From the NCBI RefSeq assembly GCF_037975245.1, contig NC_092576.1, positions 4,170,001 to 4,234,000 on the forward strand: 64,000 nt of DNA, in the 5' to 3' direction. The translations under genes were made by a program, and so were the position numbers. This document shows, piece by piece, positions 15,276 through 62,855 of the stretch; position 1 is the first letter of the stretch, and the number at the start of each line of letters is the position of its first letter. The stretch comes from Apostichopus japonicus (taxonomy: Eukaryota; Echinodermata; Holothuroidea; Aspidochirotida; Stichopodidae). Under the pieces are notes generated by a model, which was not told where the DNA came from, made no database searches, and saw only the letters and a program-made list of their open reading frames with translations.

Positions 15276-24165
<8,890 letters not shown>

Positions 24166-29500: not shown

Positions 29501-30738
29501 TCAAGTATCGATGTTGTAACAAGAATTGCATATCACGTATCTTATATTAGTCGACTAAATTAAAAGCATTGGATTGATTAGGTAAATATTGAAATTACGT
29601 ATGCCATATTGTGATACCACTTCACGAGCCTACTTTTGTCACTGTTCATAAAAATATGGGCATAGAACTGTAAACTTGTATATTCTTTACAAAAATTCAT
29701 CTTAACCTTTCCCATTATGTGGGAAACTGAGCTACACACTACACAAAACAAAAAGTGCGCCACCACTATTACTGATTGGATTTAATATCTCACCAAATAC
29801 AGACAATTGAATAAAAAATAAATATAGGACACGGCGACAGAGACAGTTATTGAAATCTTTTCGATAACAAGATGTTTCATTACTAACAATCAGCTGAGCA
29901 AAACGAACTGTTACATCGATAGGCAACACCATAGTCTCCAATAGGCCTAAGCTGTTTTGCAAACTGCCATGCCGCGGACTCCATTGGCTAGAGACAATCA
30001 TTCCGACGAGACCATGGGTCACAGAGATTACGTAACAACAAAGTGTATCTCATTCAGAGAGATAATAATAATTAATAACAATAATCAGGCAGTTGTTTTT
30101 ACTACGCTTAAGCTACAAGGTATGTGGGAGATGCTTGCAAGGGCTTATGAATTACAACTTTCACTATTTTTTCAACTCAATTCAACATTTTTAACTCAAA
30201 TTGTGAATTTTGGTAATTCAGAAAGTCATTTCAGTTGGAAAAAAACATAGATTGTTCTTGGATGGAACACCCATCTGACTATGACACTGCCGAGGTTTGC
30301 CCCCCAACCTTTCGATTGCTAAGCTGACTCATAGTATTGTAATGTTTACTCAGTCTAAGATTCCGGGGGCGCCTAAATATTCCCTACTGAGAACTGGTGG
30401 TGGTATGGAAAAAAATGTGGCTTGGCCGTTTGCGTGTTAGTAGCGACGAGCCTCGACCCTCGCTATTACATGCAGAGAATATAACACATAGATAAACGAT
30501 TAAGGAACGAACGCTGAGATTTCGTCATCTATGAAAACAATCAGCCACAAAACCAAAACCTGAACGATTCAGAACGGGAGCAAAGACTTACTTGCAAGTC
30601 TCAAGATCTGATCCACCTGAACTGATTGACAGACGTCACGTGACCTGTAATACGTCACTGTCCACATGAAAGTACATGCGGCTAAACACGGTGACATGTA
30701 GTCTGAAAAAATAGAGGTCGACAGATACGATGACCAAC
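26507..30738. other. intergenic, mostly unrecognised
   Basis: No gene is recognised. It contains a degenerate tandem array at 26890-27112 and a locally GC-richer patch at about 27770-27900. Open frames up to about 100 codons lack known motifs and overlap each other on both strands. Confidence 0.45.
26890..27112. repeat. degenerate ~28-bp minisatellite
   Basis: Seven or so diverged units around GCGAGCTGGGCTGTTTCTCG followed by CAAATCCT. Period and identity vary. It yields short open frames on both strands, which I treat as repeat artefacts. Confidence 0.75.
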
Positions 30739-32653
30739 CAGAGCCGTATATAGAGAGAGTTTGGCCAACCATGTAACCGATTTGGATTGGTCGAGAGGGA
30801 CAACGCCCACACAGGGGGGTAAAATAGGTCCACTTGAAAACTTTATAGCAGGCGACACGCATACTCACAGTGTATAGACTATCGTTTGTGTACACGAAAA
30901 AAGTACGAAATTATGAATAAAATGGTGCTGGGGATGCTGCAATCGGTCAGAACATGGATATTGTTGTTTGATTTTCCGACTGACCATGAAAGAAGAGGAT
31001 TTTTTTGGAAGTAGAAAGAACAAATGGAGATCTAATGATAAAAAGTCTGTGTAGCCTAGGCCCATAGCCATAGTGTAATACGAGTAATGTACAAGCAATG
31101 CGAGAATTTTACGTTCAGACTGGTTTCTGTAATTAGGCCTACATTCATGGCCATTCTCTCTCGTTTTACGATCCACAAATTTTCGATTTCATTATGCCAG
31201 CTCTCCTAATCATAGGCATGGCAGTTTCAGTCGCACATATAGCTATCCTAATTCCTAGTTATTGTATGCCTAGCCTAAAAAAGTATAACTTTTAGTTTAA
31301 TGTAAAAGGGTGGGCTAGGCATAACGTAAAGCCCTAATCCTAAGTTAAGCCCGAAGCATAAGTTAAGCCTGGGCTTAGTTAGACCTGGACCATTCTTGCT
31401 ATTACTACAACTGTTATAGCACATTACATAATATGGCACAGTATAAGGCCCAATTAAACTAGGCCTAAGGAAAACAAAGTAGCCTAGGCCTAAACTAGTT
31501 AGGCTAGGTCTATACTCATTGGCAACTTGTGTACACATACAGGCCTAATTATATAGACCCTTTAAGTATGCCATAAACAAGTGCCCAAATTGTTAAATGA
31601 TCTTGGTTTGTGTTAATTGTCAGCATTGGCCTAGCCTTTTTAGGCTAACATGAATTCAGCCTAACTTTTTCTTCTTCAAAAGTATAGCCTAGGCCTTGGT
31701 TTAATTTGGATGCAGTCAACTATCATTTATCAAAGTAGCAGGGGCCTAGGCTACATTTCAAAGACCACTAGGCCAAGGCTAATTATGGTACTGGTAGACT
31801 AGCCTTAGTCATGCTTATTGCAAAGACTACCCTACACTCTTGTCTTGGTCACTGAATTATCTTAAGAGCCCTGTCACCACATGTTGATAAAATATTGCGT
31901 AGGCCTAGCTTGGGCAATGCACGGTTTTGTTTGACTGTTTTAAAGCAAGACTTGAATTGATTTGAAAATTTAGTGTTAACTGGTATTTCATTAAAAAGCA
32001 AAACTGTCTGTGCATTCCAACGGAGTGCAAATTAAGAGGGGGGGGATGCAGAATGATACACCTTTCAAGTTTTAACACATTATAAATGCACTTATGCCAG
32101 AAACTCATTGCATCAGTAACTCCTTATTCCCCTAATTGACACCCACATTGATGATTGAAGTTAAAAAAAATCTTTTAAAATTATCTTTAGACAGTAAATT
32201 ACAACTCCCTGAATTTCAGGACTTTTTTTACAAATCAAAGGTGACATGTGCTCTGAAGAAAAACTCCTAACATAAAAAGCCACAGTTAGCAGACTGTGAT
32301 AAAGACGAACCTGGTGAGTGACTATTAGACTGAAATCCAGTTCCTGCAACCACAGCAATAAAGTCTTTGTTTTAATCAATGCACTTGTGTGTTTGAAACT
32401 TTCAAATGGACACTCAATGGCAGTTGGTTAAGATATAAGGTTTTACCTTCATCATGGAGAGTTGAAGGGAATCTGCCTCATCATCTGAATAATGGACTCA
32501 AGGATAGCATCAAATCATGATTGGATAATAATTTTGAGCAAGTAAATATCTGGCAATTTGAAAGTTTGTATTATTTTTTTACATATTATTTAAGCTGTTT
32601 AGCTCACACACAAGCAAATGATCAAGTGACAACAACCGATGCAGTATATTTAA

Positions 32654-33008
32654 AGGTATTGAAGACTCGCCCTAAACCGCATGCCGCACTCTGAAAAAGT
32701 TTACTTTCCGTTGCTTGCAAGTGAAGTTTTTTTTGTGTCGCTACAAAATGCAGACAGTAATGAAACCTGATACCTTGTTATCTTTTATCTAGACCTGAGA
32801 TGTCCACGCTGCTATGTGTACTGTGTTTTGGGTATTGACCGTGATGTTTGTATTGACTGTACACTAATATCTATTTACAGATGGTAGCAAGCTGTGTGTG
32901 TATTTTCTGGGATCAATGGTGGTGTCTAACACTTCTGTTACACCGCATTCGAAACTAGGTCAGATAACGGGCATGAGACGTTTCTTTGTGTGGGAGTCCT
33001 TACACCCT
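32654..33008. mobile_element. TTAA-flanked MITE, copy 1
   Basis: About 355 bp flanked by TTAA on both sides (32650-32653 and 33009-33012), starting AGGTATTGAAGACTCG and ending CTTACACCCT. It is closely similar along its length to 48960-49318 (for example CTAACACTTCTGTTACACC). TTAA target use fits the piggyBac or Kolobok groups. It is nested in the P-like transposon. Confidence 0.85.
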
Positions 33009-33469
33009 TTAAGGAGAAGTATTTATATCCCATTAATAGAGAAAGAATTATGTTTCAATTGGTAGCATGCAACTTTAAATTTTGCAAACATTAGATACAA
33101 TCAAACAAATGACAAGGTTCATTTACAAGGTAATCTACTGCCCTATATTTCACATTAATCTGTCACATCAGAAGGTCACAGCTTTCAATAATTATACAAA
33201 CAAACTCCCTTGATGGGTGCTTGGTTAGATTCCTGCAATTTTCAAGTTTATCAATGTAATAAGTTCTGAATGTGGCAATGTGGAGAACTTTGGGATAATC
33301 CGTGGATAAGACTGCCAGACTATCAACAAGATTCCACATCCATCATGCAACTCCAACTGCTTCCTTCACCTCCTTGCAGATGTACCACATGTCCAAAAAA
33401 AAGTCAGCATTGGTTAATGTAATTAAAATCTGGCTTCCTCCTGAGCCGGCAAATACACATGAATTGTCA

Positions 33470-33840
33470 AGTACAGAGGTCAGCATGAAACCACTGAAAG
33501 ATCTTCTCAGCTTTCAAGAAAACAAAGACTTGAAGCCAAATTGACAGAGGCCACACTTATACCATTCCACTCTCATAAGATGAAGGTATCACACACACTT
33601 CATTTTGCTTCTGCGATGCAGTGCCTGATAGACTGTGAGGGTCACCCAATGGATGTTTTAACAACTGCCTGGTATATAGAGCTCTGCAACAGATAATTCA
33701 TCCTGATGACGAGTCGTCATCCTGTCATGGCCTTGAGCAAATTGAACCCAGTTCAACACAAAGCAGCTATTGAATTCTTGTCTAGGTACTGTCAAATCCA
33801 CATCACCATCATTGCTGGTTCCAGCTAAGCAGACCATAAT
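33470..33840 (+). pseudogene. P-element/THAP9-like transposase fragment
   Basis: One reading frame gives KLTEATLIPFHSHKMKVSHT, then TTAWYIELCNR, a TAA stop where the family usually has Trp, then FILMTSRHPVMALSKLNPVQ and HKAAIEFL before a final stop. LT..HL.P....KMKV, followed by T..F/Y I...N.WF..M.SR and a later E/A-rich I.FL helix, is the C-terminal core layout of P-element and THAP9 transposases. This is a partial, nonsense-interrupted copy. An in-frame TGA just upstream of the recognisable part suggests further decay or an unidentified splice acceptor. Identification is by motif order, not by alignment. Confidence 0.6.
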
Positions 33841-34559
33841 AAAAGAGTACAATGAGGGTTGTTTAATTCACCCAACAGAGCTTGCATTCCAGTACCTTTA
33901 GGCAGCTGAAAAGATATTCAGAAATTGTTATATGAGTGTGTTTGTATGCATGCATATGTGTGATTTTCTTGCTTTACAGAACAGCTCCATTTTGATAAGC
34001 TATGTAACGTGGAAACCTGCCAATCATATGTTTGAAATAGGACAGGCTGAAACGATTCTTAAATGAAAAGCTTAACGACTTCTTGCATTTTGATACATCA
34101 CTGTTCAGGTTAGGCCAGTAAGGGCAGTATGAAGAATAAGTAACAATTAATAATTATCATTATGGCCATTTGCTGTCTGCATAATAACAAACTGAATGAT
34201 GTCATCAGCCCTGTGCTCAGTTGACAGAACTGACAAGTAGGTGCACTATGTCAGTGTGATCCATGAAACCTTATTAAGGAAATGACCGTATAGTATATAT
34301 GTTAATGGAAAATACATAAGCTACAACATACACCAGTATTCAGTTGTTGCAGGGTTTTTTTTTCTCGACAGACCCATTCAATCTATTGCACCTACTATAG
34401 CCTAGTACTACATTCCTGAGAATTAACACCACAATATCAGTCTTAGGTTTGCCCACAGACTCCCAACTATTGCTAACTCTACACTCAAGTATATAGTTTA
34501 GTTAGTAGAAAAAAGGACCAGAAGAGACACTCAAGTCCCCATTAAGGACCCTACGGCTA

Positions 34560-34810
34560 TATGAGAGGAATAAAACCGAGGACATCAAATGTCATACCCA
34601 ATTACAATGCTTAATGTACTCATCCAAAGCATTCTTAAACCCATTCACACTACTTGCAATTCAACCTCAGTCAAACCATTCCATCCATTCACAACCCTTG
34701 TATTAGACTTTAGAGAAAAAGTTATGCCGAATATTAATCCTACTTTGTAACTTCTGGAGTTTAAGACAATGACCTCTGGTACAACGACTTTTGGCAAACC
34801 TGAAAAGATC
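34560..34810 (-). pseudogene. CR1/L2-like LINE 3'-terminal fragment
   Basis: Translated on the minus strand in one frame with internal stops, this reads CTRGHCLKLQKLQSRINIRH, NFFSKV, then SSVNGFKNALDEY before a stop. The pattern RGH..KL.K..SR...R..FFS.RV.N.WN.LP...V.A.SVN.FKN.LD is the usual C-terminus of CR1/L2-type LINE ORF2 proteins. WNGL is preserved in a second frame (VVNGWNGL), showing frameshifts. It lies within the P-like element, antisense to its transposase. Confidence 0.65.
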
Positions 34811-35417
34811 AGTGAAGCATATATTGTCATTTTATGTGTAGGCCTACTCTATTTAATTGAAGGATCTATTAATGTAGGCCTGATGCTATAGTTGTGCGTC
34901 TGTAATCTAGCCTAGCCAGGACTGTGATGTGTGCTTTTCGTTTGTATGACTAAAGTAGGACTAGTAGTATGAGGCGTAAAATAAACAAGTGTAATGACAG
35001 GTTTTCAGCTAGTTTTCTATGCATTTCAGGTGTGAAGATAAACGTAAATGTCATTAACTAACGCATACTCTAATTCATTACCTGATATCCATTTTGTTCC
35101 TCGTATGCCTGTCAAAATCTGACATTCTGAGTCGCTTCGTTTGTTCGCAACGAGCACAGTGTGCAAAGCTGCTATATATTGTGTGTGGTGTTTTTCGTGT
35201 TTCGCGCAACTGGTAACGACAACTGGACCTATTTTGATGCCCATGGTTTGCGTGTGACGTCACAAATCGCCAGTTGGCCAAACTCTCTCTATATACGGCT
35301 CTGTGACCAACGGCATGACAGTATACTGAACACCACGAGTTCACGACCGCAACTAGTCATAATACCAACTATCGGATAACGTTAACATTCACTTCCCTTT
35401 AAGGAAGGAAGTGAACG

Positions 35418-40200: not shown

Positions 40201-42117
40201 GGCCTGGAGTGAGCACACGACTACTTTAAACAAGAGTGAATGATAACAGAGCGAGGTACCTTAATAGTTATATTGAAAAAGATTATGGTTGCCTAGCAAC
40301 AAATTCATGTGCCCCATGATTGTGCAGACAATAGATATTAAATTGTAATTCAATTCAATTAGGCAATCTTCCGATTAACGTTCTGTGGTCTTATCAATTG
40401 GACCACAAAACGTAAAACATCTCAGATTCGTAAATTTGGTATATGTTACGTTTTCGTGTTATTTTTCGAAAACAAACTATTTCACCAATTGATTGATTGA
40501 TTGATTGCTTTTTTTTCGCTTGAAGTTTTCGATATGTGGTCCTACTACACTTCTCCAGTGAGTCACTAACACATGATGTTTCCTCGAGCGCTCTCCCTGT
40601 ATGTAAAGGAGACATATGAAAATTATTCAGGAGATATCCAACATATACACATTGCTCAGGATATCTAGTTGCAGTGTTGCACGAGAAGTTCAACAACATG
40701 GTTGTGACGTGATGCGCAAGCACTTTTATCATAGCCTCATGCAGTAGAACACAAAACAGGCGTTCCATGAAAAAAAAAAACTAGGCAGAAGAAATACTAG
40801 AGAAATCAAGTTATGTTAACAAAACTATTACTGCTGCGTGAAACATATACGTGTATCTTTAAACTGGTATTATCATCTTAACAACTACCAACGCCGGTTC
40901 CAAGCTACCTATCTTTCTATTACAAATTGCCAGGGTTCAAGTTTAATTTGAATATTCCATATTTATGACTGATATTGTTGGCGTACATTGTCGAATACCA
41001 GAACATAGTTAATTTGATAAATTCTTTTCCTTTTTACTTTACAGAAAAGAGATCGATTGATTTTCAACAATACGTCACTTCCGCATGGGAAGCAAATGTG
41101 AGTACACAGGGTTCCCTTATAGGAGATAAGTGTGAATGCACACGATTCCTGCGTGGGAAAGGAATGTGACTGAGTACACACGATTCCCTTATGGGAGATA
41201 AATATGAATACACACGATTCCTGCATGGGAAAGAAATGTGAGAACACAGGATTCCCTTATAGGAGATAAATGTGAATGCACACGATTCCTGAGTGGGAAA
41301 GGAAAGTGACTGAGTACACACGATTCCCTTATGGGAAATAAATGTGAATACACTCCTGCATGGGAAAGAAATGTGAGAACACAGGATTCCCTTATAGGAG
41401 ATTAAAGTGAATGCACACGATTCCTGCGTGGGTAAAAAATGTAAGTACACAGGATTCCTGTATGTGAAAGAAATGTGACTTCACGCTATTCCCTTATAGG
41501 AGATAAATGTGAATACACAGGATTCCTGCATGGGTAAAAAATGTAAGCACACAGGATTCTTATATGGGAAAGAAATGTGACTTCACGCTATTTCCTTATA
41601 GGAGATAAATGTGAATACACAGGATTCCTGAATGGGAAAAAATGTGAGTACACAGGATTCCCTTATATGAGATAAATGTGAATTCACACGATTCCTGCAT
41701 GGGTAAGAAATGTGACAAAGTACACACGATTCCCCTATGAATCATATCTTGTGCATTACATGAAAAATATATTTCATGTAACATGATCCTACTTGATTAG
41801 TATCGAACCACTTTGTCAAAGTGGATCAAATATCTACTGAAAGGTTTTGACAGCAGCGTGGAATGAAACCGCTACTTGGTTTTTCTAATGTTATTAAGTG
41901 GTATACCGTAGATTCAATTTTGCGCTTCAGGATCCATCAATCAATATAGGTTCATTCTTCCTATCAACAGGTGCCAAGTTCTGTAGTTGCAAAGTTACTG
42001 GACGAAAACGAAGGAATCATTGCAGAGGTTTCTGTTAAAAATTGTACACTTGTCAATCCAAAGGGGCAACTGAAGTCTAAACAGATGGTCACCAGGATCA
42101 TCTTGATTTACACATGA
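37271..42117 (+). CDS. ML-domain secreted lipid-binding protein 1
   Basis: Five exons: 37271-37418, 38076-38156, 39113-39235, 41045-41097, 41971-42117 (phases 1, 1, 1, 0), 183 residues, or 166 from the second Met at 37322. The second Met begins a cleaner signal peptide (MASWLLIVIVGCWVGTS) and may be the true start. The mature protein shows the ML (MD-2-related lipid recognition; NPC2/GM2A/MD-2) layout: a first Cys (EKC), IT-W-PPRY, a central VCDLSVSFCPIYKG with the typical C-x6-CPI-x-G pair, and a strand with VAKLLDENEGIIAEVSVKNC supplying the last Cys. The C42-C47 pair of NPC2 is missing. Such proteins bind sterols or glycolipids in lysosomes or outside the cell; the ligand here is unknown. 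AATAAA at 42199-42204 is a likely poly(A) signal. Confidence 0.8.
37930..37990. repeat. short ATCGAT/GGTCGGTA simple repeat
   Basis: CGATAGCTCGATAGCTCGAT runs into GGTAGGTCGGTAGGTCGGTA. It lies in intron 1 of the first ML gene. Confidence 0.8.
39690..40208. repeat. G/C-run region with hAT-like terminus
   Basis: Intron 3 of ML gene 1 holds a G-run (39691-39713), a C-run (about 40051-40068), and a sequence ending CTTCGGAAACGGGCCTG at about 40207. Its inverted form CAGGCCCGTTTCCG resembles hAT-type ends. I could not pair it with a convincing left terminus or target duplication, so the element limits are unknown. Confidence 0.35.
41076..41745. repeat. minisatellite continuous with exon/donor junction
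   Basis: About 37-40-bp units, often alternating in pairs: TGCATGGGAAAGAAATGTGA, then a spacer ACACAGGATTCCCTTATAGG and AGATAA. The first unit overlaps ML gene 1 exon 4 and its donor: exon sequence GCATGGGAAGCAAAT|GTGAGTACACAGG is the same motif. The array fills about 650 bp of intron 4 just after the exon. The reverse strand stays partly open, an artefact. Confidence 0.9.
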
Positions 42118-47045: not shown

Positions 47046-48959
47046 ATTATTACACATCACAGCTATACTGTCAATTTTATAAACTGCAAATTCTGGATTG
47101 AACAAGCTTTTCTATAGATCCTCCGTGTTGGCTAAGTGCTGGAATTCTTCAATAAAGATGCAGTTAAGGTCATCAAGACAACATTCAATGATCTGTTAAT
47201 GCAAGGGAATTTACTGAAAGGTACTACTTCATGGAGTGACTTCGCCTTCACATCCAATCATGTTAGGCTATAAAGACCAGAAAATCATTGTGACAGTCAC
47301 ACACAAAGTACATTAAAAATGGTATTCCATCAAGAAATATAATTGTCAATATCCACCGAACAGTAATTTTATTCCCACTAACCCACTTATATATTCTTAT
47401 ATAACTTTTGTTATCATATTAAAAAAAGAACAGAAATCAAAACTACAATATTCTGAGGGATGTTCAACAAAACATGTTATCTTTGCAACAAACGTTCAAA
47501 TTATAAAGATACTTTACATAACAGTGACATATTTTCAGTTCAATATTAATCTTTCAAATTTCTGCTTGAATTGGGCCATCTAAAATGTTCTTTAATTTTT
47601 TTTGGAAAGGATTAGGTGAGCTGAGAACAGATCAGTGGTGTCGCCAATGGGTGGCCTGGGGAACCCCTCCCCCGAGAAGGAATTCACAAATAGACATATC
47701 ACCAACCAAGATTCAAATGTCTGGCAACACCACTGTAACAGAAAGCACTTTAAATTCTTTGTATGTCACCACCAGGTGGTAATACCCTGGAATTCATTGA
47801 CAACACAGCTGTAAATTGAGTCGTTATATACCCAGCTGATCCCATCTCCCGAACTCACTGAACTTTAAATTTTCCACGGTAAAGGATATAGTAACTATAC
47901 GATCCTGCCTTTACAAAAGGGATATGATGGAAACACGACGATAGTACAATGGATCTGGTACATTGCCTTTTTTCCAGTTGTGAATCATTAATGTATAGTA
48001 GCAACAATTTTCTTAGAATGATTTCAAAATGGGGAAAACATATGACAAATTTTCAGCAGGTTATTTATAAAATATTAGGAATGGTCAAACTATATATCAG
48101 TGCGGTGAACATTTAATACTTTGTGTTTCAATGATATAGATTGCTGAAAGTCATTATCCAGCACACACAAAACAAAATGTTACAAGCAAGCAGTTGACAG
48201 AATGGCACAAACTTCATAATGGCTATTAGATAAACATGAATTATTATATACTGCATTCACGATTTCATGATATGGCATTCATATAAAGCAAATTTGTATG
48301 CAAAAACAGTACATGTGACTATTATACCACCCTCAATTATTTCTTAACTTTCTGATAGTAATCATATATAGTGATTTTGATTGGGATTTCAATCAAATTT
48401 TAAAGTTTTATAAATTATCTCACGTGAATCCTTTAATGTCGGCCTCTAGCTGAAAAAGAAATGTCACCCGAGAGTCGACTAAAAAATTGAAAACAGTTTT
48501 GACTCATCACATCACTAAAATTTTAAAAAAATGGGGGGGGGGGGAATAATGAGGAAAGGATATTCTCAAATGGAATTTTCTACAGTTACTGACTTTATAA
48601 TAATCAGGTTACTTGCTTTTCATGGAACAAATTATGGAATATTGTGCACAATAACTAATATTAGCTTAATTAATTGCTTAATTAAATAAACCTTCAACAT
48701 AGTGAGTGCAGTGAAATGTAGGAACATTAAAGTAAACATTAAAATAACATGCTCGAAAAATCATACAACAAAGTTTTTTTGGCAACTAGGTGTTTGTTTA
48801 ATTACATTCATAATTAGATCAGTATCATTAAAAAACATTTTTAAAAACCAAAAATCAATTAAATATTTATTTCTGGAGCCCTCCCTATTCATATAAAACT
48901 GTTTGTAAACTCTGGGTAATCAATTTAACGTTTTAGGGTATGTGTTAGTTACTCCTTAA

Positions 48960-49318
48960 AGGCATTGAAGACTTGTCCCAAACAGCATGCAGCCATCTGA
49001 AAAAGTTAACTTTCTGTTGCTTGCTAGTGATGTTTGTTCGTGTCGCTAAAAAAGACAGACAGTAATGAAACGTGATACCTTGATATCTTTAGCTGGACCT
49101 GAGATGTTCATCGCTGTATCGTTTATACACTGTACTGTGGGTATTGACCGGAGCTGTATGAATTGACTGTACACTAGTGTCTAATTACCGACGGTAGCAA
49201 GCTGTGTTTGTATTTTCTGGGATCGATTGCAGTGTCTAACACTTCTGTTACACCTCATTCGAAACTAGGTCAGATTACCGGCATTAGACGTTCTTTTTGC
49301 GCAGGTCTTCACACCCTT
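48960..49318. mobile_element. TTAA-flanked MITE, copy 2
   Basis: 359 bp between TTAA tetramers (48956-48959 and 49319-49322). It starts AGGCATTGAAGACTTG; the right end inverted is AGGGTGTGAAGACCTG, matching at 12 of 16 positions. It is the same family as 32654-33008. It is nested in the 5-kb unit, just downstream of the decayed coding block. Confidence 0.85.
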
Positions 49319-49369
49319 TTAAACCTACTCCATGCTGACACACGTGGTTCCGGACTACAGAGCAATAAA

Positions 49370-49691: not shown

Positions 49692-50310
49692 CTGTTTGAT
49701 GAAGAAAAAAATAAATGTGATAAAGGACAAGCAATATGGTATAAATCAAAACATTCTTAAAAAAAAGATATGTTGAGAGGTAGAGAGACTAGACTAGAAT
49801 AATATTTAGGAGAGAATGGAGAAACAAGAACATGACTGGCATTGTACAAAGGAGATATATCAATTCACGATAGGCAGCAATATGTCATCCATGGCGAGTG
49901 AGATGTGTTATGTGAAGGTGGATTCAGATTCAACCTAACATTTATGGGTTATCATGTTGATTTTGGCAGGTACATGGTTACCAAGCAAGGTTTGTTGTTA
50001 GTTGTTTTCAGAAATTTCTCTTTTTAAGGATAAATTGTTCATGACATCTCCTGATTCCATTACATCAGCATAGAAAACCAGTGAACAAGGAATACGATTT
50101 ACATTTTAGCCTACTGATTTCACTAATATGTCTATCTGCTTGTAAAAGAAACTGATTTCATAAGATTAGTGAATGGTAGTATTATTGTAAAATCTTATAA
50201 TAAAGACTGATGGCCCACTATATGTTTAATAAAATAACAAAAGCATACCAATTCTTTTCCAGTTTCCACATGATTTAAATACAATGGTAATGGTTTAACA
50301 GAATCGTGTT

Positions 50311-51145
50311 AGCTTCATGCTGTAATGGCTGTAGCAGTCACTACATTTTTTCAAATAATTAAGGGTGCTTACAATCTATGCATAATAGTACAGTGTTTTG
50401 CAATTTCTTGAGCATTATTATGTTCAAGTATTTGTTATGAGGTTAACCAAGCCTAGATTCATTTGGGACGATCGAGTTCATATTGCAGTCCTGACAAGCG
50501 TGCTTATTCGCCCGACGATTGGGTTCATATGCAGGACAGGCGGGCTAATTTGCCCGACGATCTGGTACCGTGATAGCTTCATGCTGTAATGGCTGTAGCA
50601 GTCACTACATTTTTCAAATAATTAAGGGTGCTTACAATCTATGCATAATAGTACTTTGTTTTGCAATTTCTTGAGCTTTATTATGTCCAAGTATTTGTTA
50701 TGAGGTTAACCTAGCCTAGGCTAGATTCATTTTGGGACGATCGAGTACATATTGCAGGACAAGCGTGCTTATTCGCCCGACGATCGGGTACATATGCAGG
50801 ACAGGCGGGCTAATTTGCCCGACGATCTGGTACCGTGATAGCTTCATGCTGTAATGGCTGTAGCAGTCACTACATTTTTCAAATAATTAAGGGTGCTTAC
50901 AATCTATGCATAATAGTACTTTGTTTTGCAATTTCTTGAGCTTTATTATGTCCAAGTATTTGTTATGAGGTTAACCTAGCCTAGGCTAGATTCATTTTGG
51001 GACGATCGAGTACATATTGCAGGACAAGCGTGCTTATTCGCCCGACGATCGGGTACATATGCAGGACAGGCGGGCTGATTTGCCCGACGATCGGGTACAT
51101 ATGCAGGACCGGCGTGCTTATTCGCCAGACGATCGTGTTAATAGG
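50311..51145. repeat. 264/265-bp tandem triplication
   Basis: AGCTTCATGCTGTAATGGCT starts units at 50311, 50575 and 50840. Units 2 and 3 are almost identical. Each unit ends with a nested ~42-bp subrepeat (CAAGCGTGCTTATTCGCCCG, then ACGATCGGGTACATATGCAGGA), which is expanded further in the last copy. It lies in the putative intron of the minus-strand gene of the 5-kb unit. The + strand frames through it are not genes. Confidence 0.93.
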
Positions 51146-59936: not shown

Positions 59937-62855
59937 TTATTTCTGGAAACCATTACTCTGGTTGCTTTCCGAAATAGATTTTTCAGTAGAATGACTTTTA
60001 AGTACAGTGGATCGACCTTTAAGAGAAGCTGTTCCAGTGCTGTTGCTTTGACTGATCTCGCTTCTTTTCAGCTTTAAAAACATTTTTCTGAATTCCGGAT
60101 TTGCTACACAAAGCAACAAAAACATCAAAACACCTTGCAAGGCAATGAATATGCAATACAGATAGTCAAATATTAGAGTTGATTGGTCGACAGCTGCAAG
60201 AAATCCAAAAGCCCACGAGAGGCCGAGAACAAACCAGAAGAGAACACCATGTCGAATTCTTGTAATGATTTCATCCCTCTTTGCATGTTCCTTTGCTTTA
60301 CTGACCATCAGTGGGCGACACAGGATTTTCCGGATGACCATCGCAAATATGATCAAATTGAATACAAACATCGCACCGACCTCTGCCAGGAATCCGAAAT
60401 AGAGGGAGTATCCAGGATGGATGAAACAACTTTGGGAACAAAGAATATGAAATCAATGCTGTGTCACATAAATACATAACCAAACATGAAAATGTCATGC
60501 GTTGTAAAACTGTCGCTTTTTTAATTATTTTCAACATTTTCATTCCGTAACGGAGGTAAGTACGTCTCTTTTTGTTTATGATCATTAATCGTATATTTTG
60601 TTAACCTAACATTACGTAGAAACAATAAATCGTTGTATTGTGAGATAGTCAAATGGCGTAAAGATAATTAATCAGTGGAAGTATAAAACAAGATGTTTGC
60701 TACTATAGCTTGCAACTCTTTTGCTCTGACTATTGTGTTATTTATAATCGACGTAAAATACTACGTTACTATTTCAGAGCATCCAAACGATAAGTTAAGG
60801 AATCCGTTAAGCGACAAAATTTGCATTAGTATTGTTTTTCAATCCTTGAACTATTGGTTGAATTATGTCAAGTTCTTCTACATGTTTTGTATTACATGTT
60901 TTGGCTGTGTTATTGAATCAGTATATTCGCATATGTTACGAAGTCTAACTAGGGCTCTATTAATGAACAAACTTGACATTCTGTGAAGTTCCACAATGAA
61001 AAGAAAAACCTTTATACCAGCTTTAATGAGCGATTAAATCAGCCTTCGACCCGAACAGATGTACCCAGTCAGATGTGTTCTGACAGGATTGCATAACTGA
61101 AACAAGTTATTTTATGCTGCTAATAAAAAATGCACATAAGTCTTTACAAAATATATATTACTTACTAGTTAGCCGTTTCATAATCGGTTGTTTTGTCAAG
61201 GAAAGCCACCAGGATAACGCATGTAAAGGATGAACCTGTCCAAAATAAGACACAAATAGCGGAGTGTGATATCGGGAGTTTATTGATCAAAATCCGATTC
61301 ACACAGATATGTATGTATAATTGAAATGTACTCGACAACACAACATACATAAACTCCCTGTAGCATAGGATATGTTGGTATAGCTATATATCCTAAGCTT
61401 ACATACTTCTCATAACTTATTGACGACAGTAATCATTCGTTTCGGAGTGCTTAACTCTGCATACTCTTCTGTCCAAACTCACTCCTGGCCATTTTATTTT
61501 ATTTTTCGCCCCCCACCCTAAAAAAAAATATTGTATCAACTTCTACAATACTTAAACAAACTATCTCTGTATGAGACCAATTTAAGAACGGTGTAGTATA
61601 GGTTCGTTAACTATCAAGGAAGTTTCTCACTAAAGAAACAAAACCCTAAAAGTACAACAAGGAAACTTGAAAGTTAGTCATGTTTTGGAGGCAGGGTTGC
61701 GTCTTTTAACGAGATCAAAAACAAACTAGAAAGGTGAGAGTTTATTATTCCCAGAACTTCTTTCAATTGATGTGGTGACTGTGACGACTTAACGGGAACT
61801 GCATTGCGCATTGTCAATATAAGGTTCGTTATGCTTGAACGCGCACAATGAATACTCGTCGTTAAAGCATTGTTACTTGTTAAACCGGAGTTCAAGTAAG
61901 GGTTAGAGTTATAAAGCTAGTGAAGAAAAAAAAAAGATATATTCAATCAAATTTTATTTCTAAACTTCCCAGAATAGCCATTGTGTGGTGAAGCACCTAT
62001 TCGCCATAGTGATAATTGATAATTGCACATATAAACACGTACCGATGATTCTCCGAAAATGTCATAGTTTTATACGTAACTGTAAAACAGACACTTACCA
62101 TATGCAACTATGCATGCAATTGGTGTGAAATAACGAATGCTCCCTTTCTTAGCTTTGAGAAACAAGAAATAAAGATTCAAAGCTTCTGCTGACATCCAAG
62201 CCAACGTAGCCAGACAGAAGAATTGAATGATTGCGGAGACCGCGGCACAACGTTGTTTCTTCCCTACAGCGAGAGGACCAACCAGGAAAGCAATGTAGAA
62301 ACCCAAAAGAGACAAACAAAGGTTGATATGGATTTGAGTCGGTTGTTTCGATCTAAATGCTCTGAAATAAGAATAAATATAGAGCACACAATATCATCAA
62401 CAAGTTTATTTCGATATTGCATTTTTTAATGACAATGTTTCTAGTCAATTAACTTAGATACAGGTCGCGGGACAGGAGCAGGATCTTCTTCAAAGTCAAA
62501 TTGCAACAATTTGAATTATCGCTGTAACCAATTTAACTCAAAACAAAGTGTCTGCACATATAAAATATTATTTCATAATACTTTCATGTATGAGACATCG
62601 CCATGTTATGATTAATAATTGCTTGCAAGCAACTCTTTATTTCTGTTATTTTTATTTAATTTTCGTTCAAGGATGTGCGGTTCATCTTTATTGTGTATAT
62701 TACTGATATGAATGCCTTGTTATATATTTAGATGTTGGTACTTACTTGATGGATAGAAAGGTTACGATGCAGAATATCAGGCACACTCCAGATATTATTG
62801 ATCCAATTAATGTTATGTAGTAGAGGGCAATCTGGTTTTCTATAGGACCAACCCT
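59937..62855 (-). CDS. adhesion-type GPCR, seven-TM region
   Basis: Four minus-strand exons in coding order: 62855-62746, 62361-62099, 61235-61166, 60429-59937 (phases 2, 1, 2), about 312 residues ending at a TAA. Exon one gives TM1 (ALYYITLIGSIISGVCLIFC); exon two TM2-TM4, with HINLCLSLLGFYIAFLVG, a TM3 Cys (KKQRCAAVS) and WMSAEALNLYFLF; exon three the rest of TM4 and the second loop; exon four YCFIHPGY (partner Cys), TM5, RIRHGVLFWFVLGLSWAFGF (TM6), TM7 and ANPEFRKMF with a Ser/Thr-rich tail. HINLCLSLL, W..EAL.LY and WAFGF fit class B2 (adhesion) better than secretin receptors. The GPS/GAIN region is not found in the remaining 1.1 kb and presumably lies beyond the window. TTTATT at 59588 (minus AATAAA) is a likely poly(A) signal. 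Ligand unknown. Confidence 0.85.

Follow-up and report, generated by a model that had tools for sequence, protein, structure and literature searches.

Few animal transposons have been studied as thoroughly as P elements. The transposase of the Drosophila melanogaster P element makes staggered cuts 17 nt inside the terminal inverted repeat (TIR), its residues D230, D303, and E531 have catalytic roles, and it is described as transposing without site specificity, although mapped insertions have yielded a consensus (PMC7776569). For P, THAP sites are given at 53-63 and 41-51 bp, and for Galileo close to 70 bp (PMC3688188); the general THAP site is TXXGGGX(A/T) (PMC3464256). Here, we analysed a stretch of 64,000 nucleotides from Apostichopus japonicus (contig NC_092576.1, positions 4,170,001 to 4,234,000; called the window in the following), in which positions 30739-35303 are occupied by a transposon-like element. 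Taken as a whole, the data are very probably best explained by an internally deleted, non-autonomous member of the P superfamily, which was moved in trans and whose insertion was directed by a short motif in the target. Such a target motif is unexpected for P elements.

The TIR arms of the window element are complementary at 31 of 31 positions, and the exact 8-bp duplication TGACCAAC is present on both sides, just as an earlier sequence-only reading of the window had claimed. By a simple estimate, an exact inverted repeat of 31 nt is expected about 5e-9 times by chance in 64 kb. The similarity of the two ends ceases after 31 bp in a local alignment, and further inside the ends share a 16-nt subterminal inverted repeat, in which one position is mismatched. 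The sequence-only reading had also described the coding part as a P/THAP9-like relic. Comparing the translated relic directly with profiles did not yield any P-type match, neither in Pfam (six frames and pieces) nor in the PDB, which weighs against the assignment, but the claim was borne out by the relatives of the element. A less decayed relative on C4 (L049) contains the GTP-binding insertion domain PF21788 (GBD; 28.5 bits at a cut-off of 24.8 bits, 2.1e-6), for which 40 matches were obtained in the genome compared with none in 14 control genomes. L049 was considered as the partner of the window element and rejected, being an older decayed relative. A second relative, L051 at C21:1208331-1215345, is a 7,015-bp element flanked by the duplication TTGAATGC, and both of its TIRs are identical to those of the window element at 31 of 31 positions. 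Its open transposase frame of 789 residues matches the RNase H N-terminal domain (PF21787, 1.1e-33) and the GBD (PF21788, 9.4e-13) above the Pfam cut-offs, and a THAP domain (PF05485, 6.1e-11, also above the cut-off) is found upstream of the frame. At an E-value of 0.01 its sole match in the PDB is the Drosophila P transposase (6p5a, 6.2e-38), whose D230, D303, and E531 are aligned to D219, D306, and E547 of the frame (positions 2655, 2916, and 3639 of the C21 element). The window relic is 83-91% identical to this frame at the DNA level in the coding blocks. Based on these relatives, the window element is assigned to the P superfamily. hAT transposons also generate 8-bp duplications and have CAGAG-like ends, and the window element shares the length of the duplication and starts with CAG. 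The C21 partner with the same ends, however, codes for a transposase of the P type and does not match any other transposase family, so that a hAT identity is already contradicted and can practically be dismissed. Weak matches of the relic and its relatives to NagA_N, GbpC, BphP, LMF1_C, and ZZ were put aside as chance.

In a block-wise alignment with the C21 copy, about 1.0 kb and 0.49 kb are missing from the window element. The catalytic D, D, and E positions fall into the gaps at 33242/33267 and 33779/33780, and the two deletions thus take out all three of them. The in-frame nonsense codon noted in the sequence-only reading is real and present in all 20 aligned copies, while the extent of the decay had been understated there. 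Because of the stop and the deletions, the window copy, which does not contain an intact transposase frame, is regarded as non-autonomous. A search of the genome (671.6 Mb) with the TIR pattern, allowing up to two mismatches, revealed 187 forward and 189 reverse occurrences (control 0), corresponding to about 188 family copies if every copy has two ends. Forty loci were fetched, namely the 20 best left-end matches besides the window and 20 paired ends on C1-C4. Elements with both ends are present in 37 of these, and together with the window they amount to 42 elements of 4,045-5,719 bp at 38 sites; L010, L018, and L023 are excluded from both counts because their second end is outside the fetched stretch. 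The limits of the window element are shared by the other copies, as both TIRs match at 31 of 31 positions in 40 of the 42 elements, but this agreement is partly by construction, because it was by these ends that the copies had been located and their limits set. An exact 8-bp duplication surrounds 38 of the 42 elements, and also the C21 partner. The remaining cases are L012 with a one-base shift, L037 without duplication, and both elements in L040, in which the middle copy of the duplication is inverted.

Twenty aligned elements are 96.8-100% identical in the aligned columns along their length. L014 on C19 and the first element of L021 on C8 differ by only two substitutions and two indels over 4,566 aligned bases, and the window copy and L009 on C20 by 30 substitutions over 4,561 bases. 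Because the copies are near-identical and all 20 carry the same stop, it is the decayed element itself that has spread, and the family is young. This agrees with the earlier proposal that the copy was moved after its cargo had decayed. The exact 19-nt core of the TIR is absent from the collections of viral contigs and genome contigs, and three TIR strings did not match the searched literature text. The copies might also have been carried along within larger repeats or segmental duplications without any transposition, for which the cluster of homologous flanks holding 18 of the 38 sites could be invoked. However, duplications and flanks differ between copies, the elements of L020 and L022 are 97.9% alike while their flanks are only 85% alike, the flanks of L014 and L028 are 94% alike and yet their elements carry different subfamily deletions, and copies of the repeat without element exist. 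Passenger spread is thus already contradicted for the sites compared, and extremely improbable in general. Separately, GBD matches and TIR ends at C16:17.49-17.71 Mb (C16 is the contig of the window) repeat at an offset of about 176-177 kb, which suggests a segmental or assembly duplication.

Concerning the source of the enzyme, the sequence-only reading had predicted that a relative with THAP domain and open transposase frame may still exist and be active. The relative is found at C21, where it shares the ends of the window element and is flanked by a duplication of its own; it looks intact and may be active. The outer about 120 bp of the C21 and window copies are 93-100% identical in 30-base steps at both ends, while the identity drops to 57-83% just beyond and amounts to 65-91% in the interior blocks. 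Ends kept and interiors drifted are as expected from selection for mobilisation by a shared transposase. In the proposed mechanism, a transposase of the kind encoded at C21 would recognise the ends of about 120 bp, cut inside the TIR, and insert the element with an 8-bp duplication, and the C21 copy or a near relative is probably the actual source of this enzyme. Some observations have to be set against this role of C21. The match to the RNase H C-terminal domain (PF21789) is below the cut-off, start, splicing, and activity of the transposase are predictions, and among the 57 of 619 candidates scored in the protein search of the genome the C21 frame is the sole intact one of 789 residues. A copy on C9 is 99% identical to the C21 frame but does not contain residues 75-292. 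The moving transposase could also have come from another copy that is lost, unassembled, or part of another family. In its interior, the C21 copy differs from the decayed family by 9-35%, and therefore the two parted long ago. In addition, further P-type frames exist. A second P-type family is represented by two copies with open frames of 779 residues at C19:10286912-10289032 and C19:10312941-10315061 (L050), with 68% protein identity to the C21 frame, and in L050 a THAP half-domain, which is below the cut-off (E 4.7e-4), is found upstream. In contrast, the ends of the C21 copy match those of the window copy over about 120 bp on both sides, and the TIR of the window family was not seen in 6.5 kb of L050, whose ends may lie outside. 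A source other than C21 is therefore not very likely, though it deserves some weight. Many other GBD matches of the P type, most of them containing stops, are concentrated on C16 at 5188063-6079690, 17491732-17668325, and 29589708-30640671.

The target specificity of the family was missed in the sequence-only reading. At 30 of the 38 sites, the sequence G-N-(G/T)-G-G-C-(A/G) is found on one side of the duplication at a distance of exactly 10 nt, at one site it is at 11 nt, and at any other distance within 190 bp it is present at no more than one of the 38 sites. By flank homology the sites fall into 19 clusters, the largest of which holds 18 sites. Among 18 unrelated sites, taken one from each of the other clusters, 16 match the motif in at least six of seven positions at 10 nt, compared with at most two at the other distances between 0 and 59 nt, and the logo at these sites reads (T/A)G(A/G)(G/T)GGC(G/A)(C/G)T. 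In the genome, CTCTCTATATACGGCTCTG followed by YGCCMNC within 15-21 bases occurs 64 + 60 times (control 0). As judged by eye, the spacing is 18 (8 + 10) in 94 of the 100 places listed, 19 in four, and 17 in two. The pattern TATACGGCTCTG-N18-CGCC has 401 occurrences (control 0) compared with three at a spacing of N14. The C21 partner has GAGTGCG (six of seven) at the corresponding place in its flank, and the motif is also seen at spacing 18 from a TIR end located 2.6 kb away from the C9 frame. Of 31 single elements, 22 have their left end on the side of the motif (p = 0.03), but an orientation bias is not claimed because the sites are not independent.

Several points weaken the case for the motif. 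L009 and L047 among the 18 unrelated sites do not have it, the window's own site matches in only six of seven positions, and the six-of-seven match of L013 is doubtful and may be chance or shifted. The motif was derived from the same sites at which it was scored, and therefore the other distances serve as control; the two genome-wide tests come in addition. One abundant repeat holds 18 of the 38 sites and, by eye, about 38 of the 100 listed places. Because so many sites are in this repeat, the genome counts are inflated and do not represent independent events. Nevertheless, judged by the sites compared, insertion of the family is motif-directed, with GNKGGCR followed by 10 nt and the duplication.

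The unoccupied counterparts of the sites represent paralogous repeats and not alleles. For L014, the joined flanks were matched by 40 of 40 scored places (from 1,475 candidates), which span the junction without element at 94-98% identity. For the joined flanks of the window copy, 38 other places match (40 scored from 135 candidates), of which 36 extend at least four bases past the duplication. Given that the elements of L020 and L022 outmatch their flanks and that L014 and L028 carry different subfamily deletions, the same base was hit more than once. Double elements exactly 8 bp apart were found in five cases among the places listed in the TIR search, and a second hit at the same motif would explain them. 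The pairs in the fetched loci are oriented ++, +-, and -+. L040 (C3:9796075-9805463) contains a head-to-head pair, in which the middle 8 bp are inverted with respect to the outer copies, as would result from an inversion via the TIRs.

It is tempting to assume that the transposase itself reads the motif, most likely by its THAP domain. The motif resembles the general THAP site and similar motifs are present in both ends of the element, namely at 66-72 bp from the left and, in six of seven positions, at 30-36 bp from the right end, both unchanged in the C21 partner. It is for these reasons that reading by THAP is favoured. We consider it possible, but somewhat short of an even chance, that a P-superfamily transposase picks its sites via the same THAP domain that it uses on its own ends. 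If true, the motif would be read one helical turn from the cut, and members of the family would repeatedly hit one particular base of a dispersed repeat and come to lie side by side. As the main alternative, the motif might be read by a host protein such as CTCF, which would recruit the transposase. The logo, written as RKGGCRSY, coincides with the 3' half of the consensus given for CTCF, CCASYAGRKGGCRS (PMC6746451). However, the 5' half of this consensus, CCASYA, is not seen upstream of the motif, the fixed spacing of 10 nt suits a direct contact, and matches to the motif are found in the element's own ends as well. Recruitment by a host factor is thus quite improbable.

After excision by such a transposase, as after that of Drosophila P, stubs of the TIR not longer than about 17 nt might stay behind. 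Searching the genome for CAGAGCCGTATA-N(0-30)-TATACGGCTCTG revealed 113 palindromic places (control 0), and in the 36 strings inspected the stubs comprise at most 18 nt of the family's TIR, with one of exactly 17+17. Most of the 113 palindromes are probably excision scars of the window family or its near relatives. They could instead be a small repeat in its own right, or originate from related families as scars and ends. Thirteen of the 36 strings contain a TTTA/TAAA filler, which suggests a related family, and these often share only 13 nt with each TIR of the window family, as expected for a relative whose TIR differs slightly. Also, the 12-mer CAGAGCCGTATA of the end occurs 1,492 times (control 19), about four times as often as full TIR ends. 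On the other hand, stubs longer than 18 nt do not appear in the 36 strings although longer joins were allowed, the lengths vary, and among the 21 palindromes on C2-C6 nine have CGCC at exactly N18 and three more adjoin such an end. Such origins other than excision of the window family are therefore improbable, though the filler strings add to their weight. The interpretation as scars is nevertheless strained by the fact that CGCC is at 18 in only nine of the 21, that the exact 17+17 palindrome does not have CGCC at the expected spacing, and that the duplications around the palindromes could not be read. Beside these palindromes, L037 (C3:3648928-3654555) is a compound site with extra TIR stubs on both outer sides and GTAAAGAG nearby, and looks like an element beside old scars.

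With a sharp one-sided motif, an intact-looking transposase in the same genome, nearly two hundred insertions, and probable scars, target choice by a THAP-type transposase would become directly testable, and the family could point to motif-directed gene insertion. The family would also be a clean case of a dead 4.6-kb element outnumbering its helper via movement in trans.

Table. Features of the element at 30739-35303 and of its insertion site (window coordinates)
Feature	Position	Strand	Basis
Target motif GAGGTCG (6/7 to GNKGGCR), 10 nt from the duplication	30714..30720	+	flank comparison, sequence reading
Left target-site duplication TGACCAAC	30731..30738	+	sequence reading
Left 31-bp TIR	30739..30769	+	arm comparison; identical in C21 partner
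Left putative functional end, about 120 bp	30739..30858	+	93-100% to C21 partner (30-base steps), then 73-80%
GTGGGCG, target-motif match inside left end, candidate transposase-binding site	30804..30810	-	unchanged in C21 partner
Left copy of 16-nt subterminal inverted repeat (94%)	30821..30836	+	arm comparison
Putative THAP exon 1 relic, approximate limits	30921..31050	+	alignment to C21 partner
Nested TTAA-bounded insertion, MITE-like	32650..33012	.	absent from C21 partner; 83% copy at 48956-49319
P-type transposase relic, spanning the GTP-binding insertion region plus the piece that follows	33267..33924	+	alignment to C21 partner
In-frame TAA	33694..33696	+	20/20 aligned copies
Stretch to which the sequence-only reading probably referred as LINE fragment, identity not confirmed	34645..34848	-	profile and protein searches
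Right putative functional end, about 120 bp	35184..35303	-	97-100% to C21 partner (30-base steps), then 57-83%
Right copy of subterminal inverted repeat	35220..35235	-	arm comparison
ACTGGCG, 6/7 target-motif match in right end, candidate transposase-binding site	35268..35274	-	unchanged in C21 partner
Right 31-bp TIR	35273..35303	-	arm comparison
Right target-site duplication TGACCAAC	35304..35311	+	sequence reading

A frameshifted LINE fragment, which had been proposed inside the element, could not be confirmed. A Pfam match was not obtained within the element, and searching at the protein level with the most probable stretch gave nothing informative; among the 150 candidates scored out of 1,260, open frames do not exceed 91 residues. 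The ratio of observed to expected CpG is 0.09-0.30 in 10 of 16 300-bp bins of the element and 0.5-0.7 in three, compared with 1.02 and 0.84 in the flanks. The 42 copies have mean ratios of 0.94 and 1.12 within their outer 300 bp, and of 0.27 in the middle. CpG depletion was dropped as a mark of decay before insertion because the intact-looking C21 partner shows a similar pattern, and is regarded as a property of the family, perhaps due to methylation. Elsewhere in the window, an exon of a secretin-type 7-transmembrane receptor (PF00002, 6.7e-9), which marks the DNA as animal, is encoded at 59937-60452 on the minus strand, and tandem repeats with periods of about 36, 34/68, and 265 are found at 16977-17894, 41079-41739, and 50305-51098, respectively.

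Among known systems, sequence-specific insertion of a DNA transposon has been described for the Dada superfamily, which is a different superfamily and targets multicopy small RNA genes (PMC3706591), while the window family uses a short motif at scattered sites. Within the P superfamily, an element with such a target motif was not found by title and start of abstract in the open-licence literature. The zebrafish Pdre2/THAP9 system shares the P-type transposase, a TIR with subterminal repeat, the 8-bp duplication, and deleted copies, but has a 13-bp TIR, CATACCTGTCAAC, and distant 12-bp subterminal repeats (PMC10983969); an insertion motif is not mentioned in the available part of that paper. 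In Galileo, the THAP-binding site is centred at about 70 bp from the end (PMC3688188), comparable to the candidate at 66-72 bp from the left end of the window element. The TIRs of Galileo, however, are 0.5-1.2 kb long, and all sequenced copies are said to contain stops or frameshifts (PMC3688188). The Drosophila P element has the same organisation of a 31-bp TIR, a subterminal inverted repeat, and an 8-bp duplication, a transposase with THAP domain and a split RNase H with GTP-binding insertion and D, D, E residues, and internally deleted non-autonomous copies (PMC7776569). Its staggered cut at 17 nt (PMC7776569) would also fit the stub palindromes, if these are scars of the window family. The two differ in their end sequences and in length, a full P element being 2.9 kb long (PMC7776569) compared with the 7.0-kb partner and the derivatives of 4.0-5.7 kb found here. 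Also, P is described as not site-specific, whereas in the window family a one-sided motif is located 10 nt outside the duplication.

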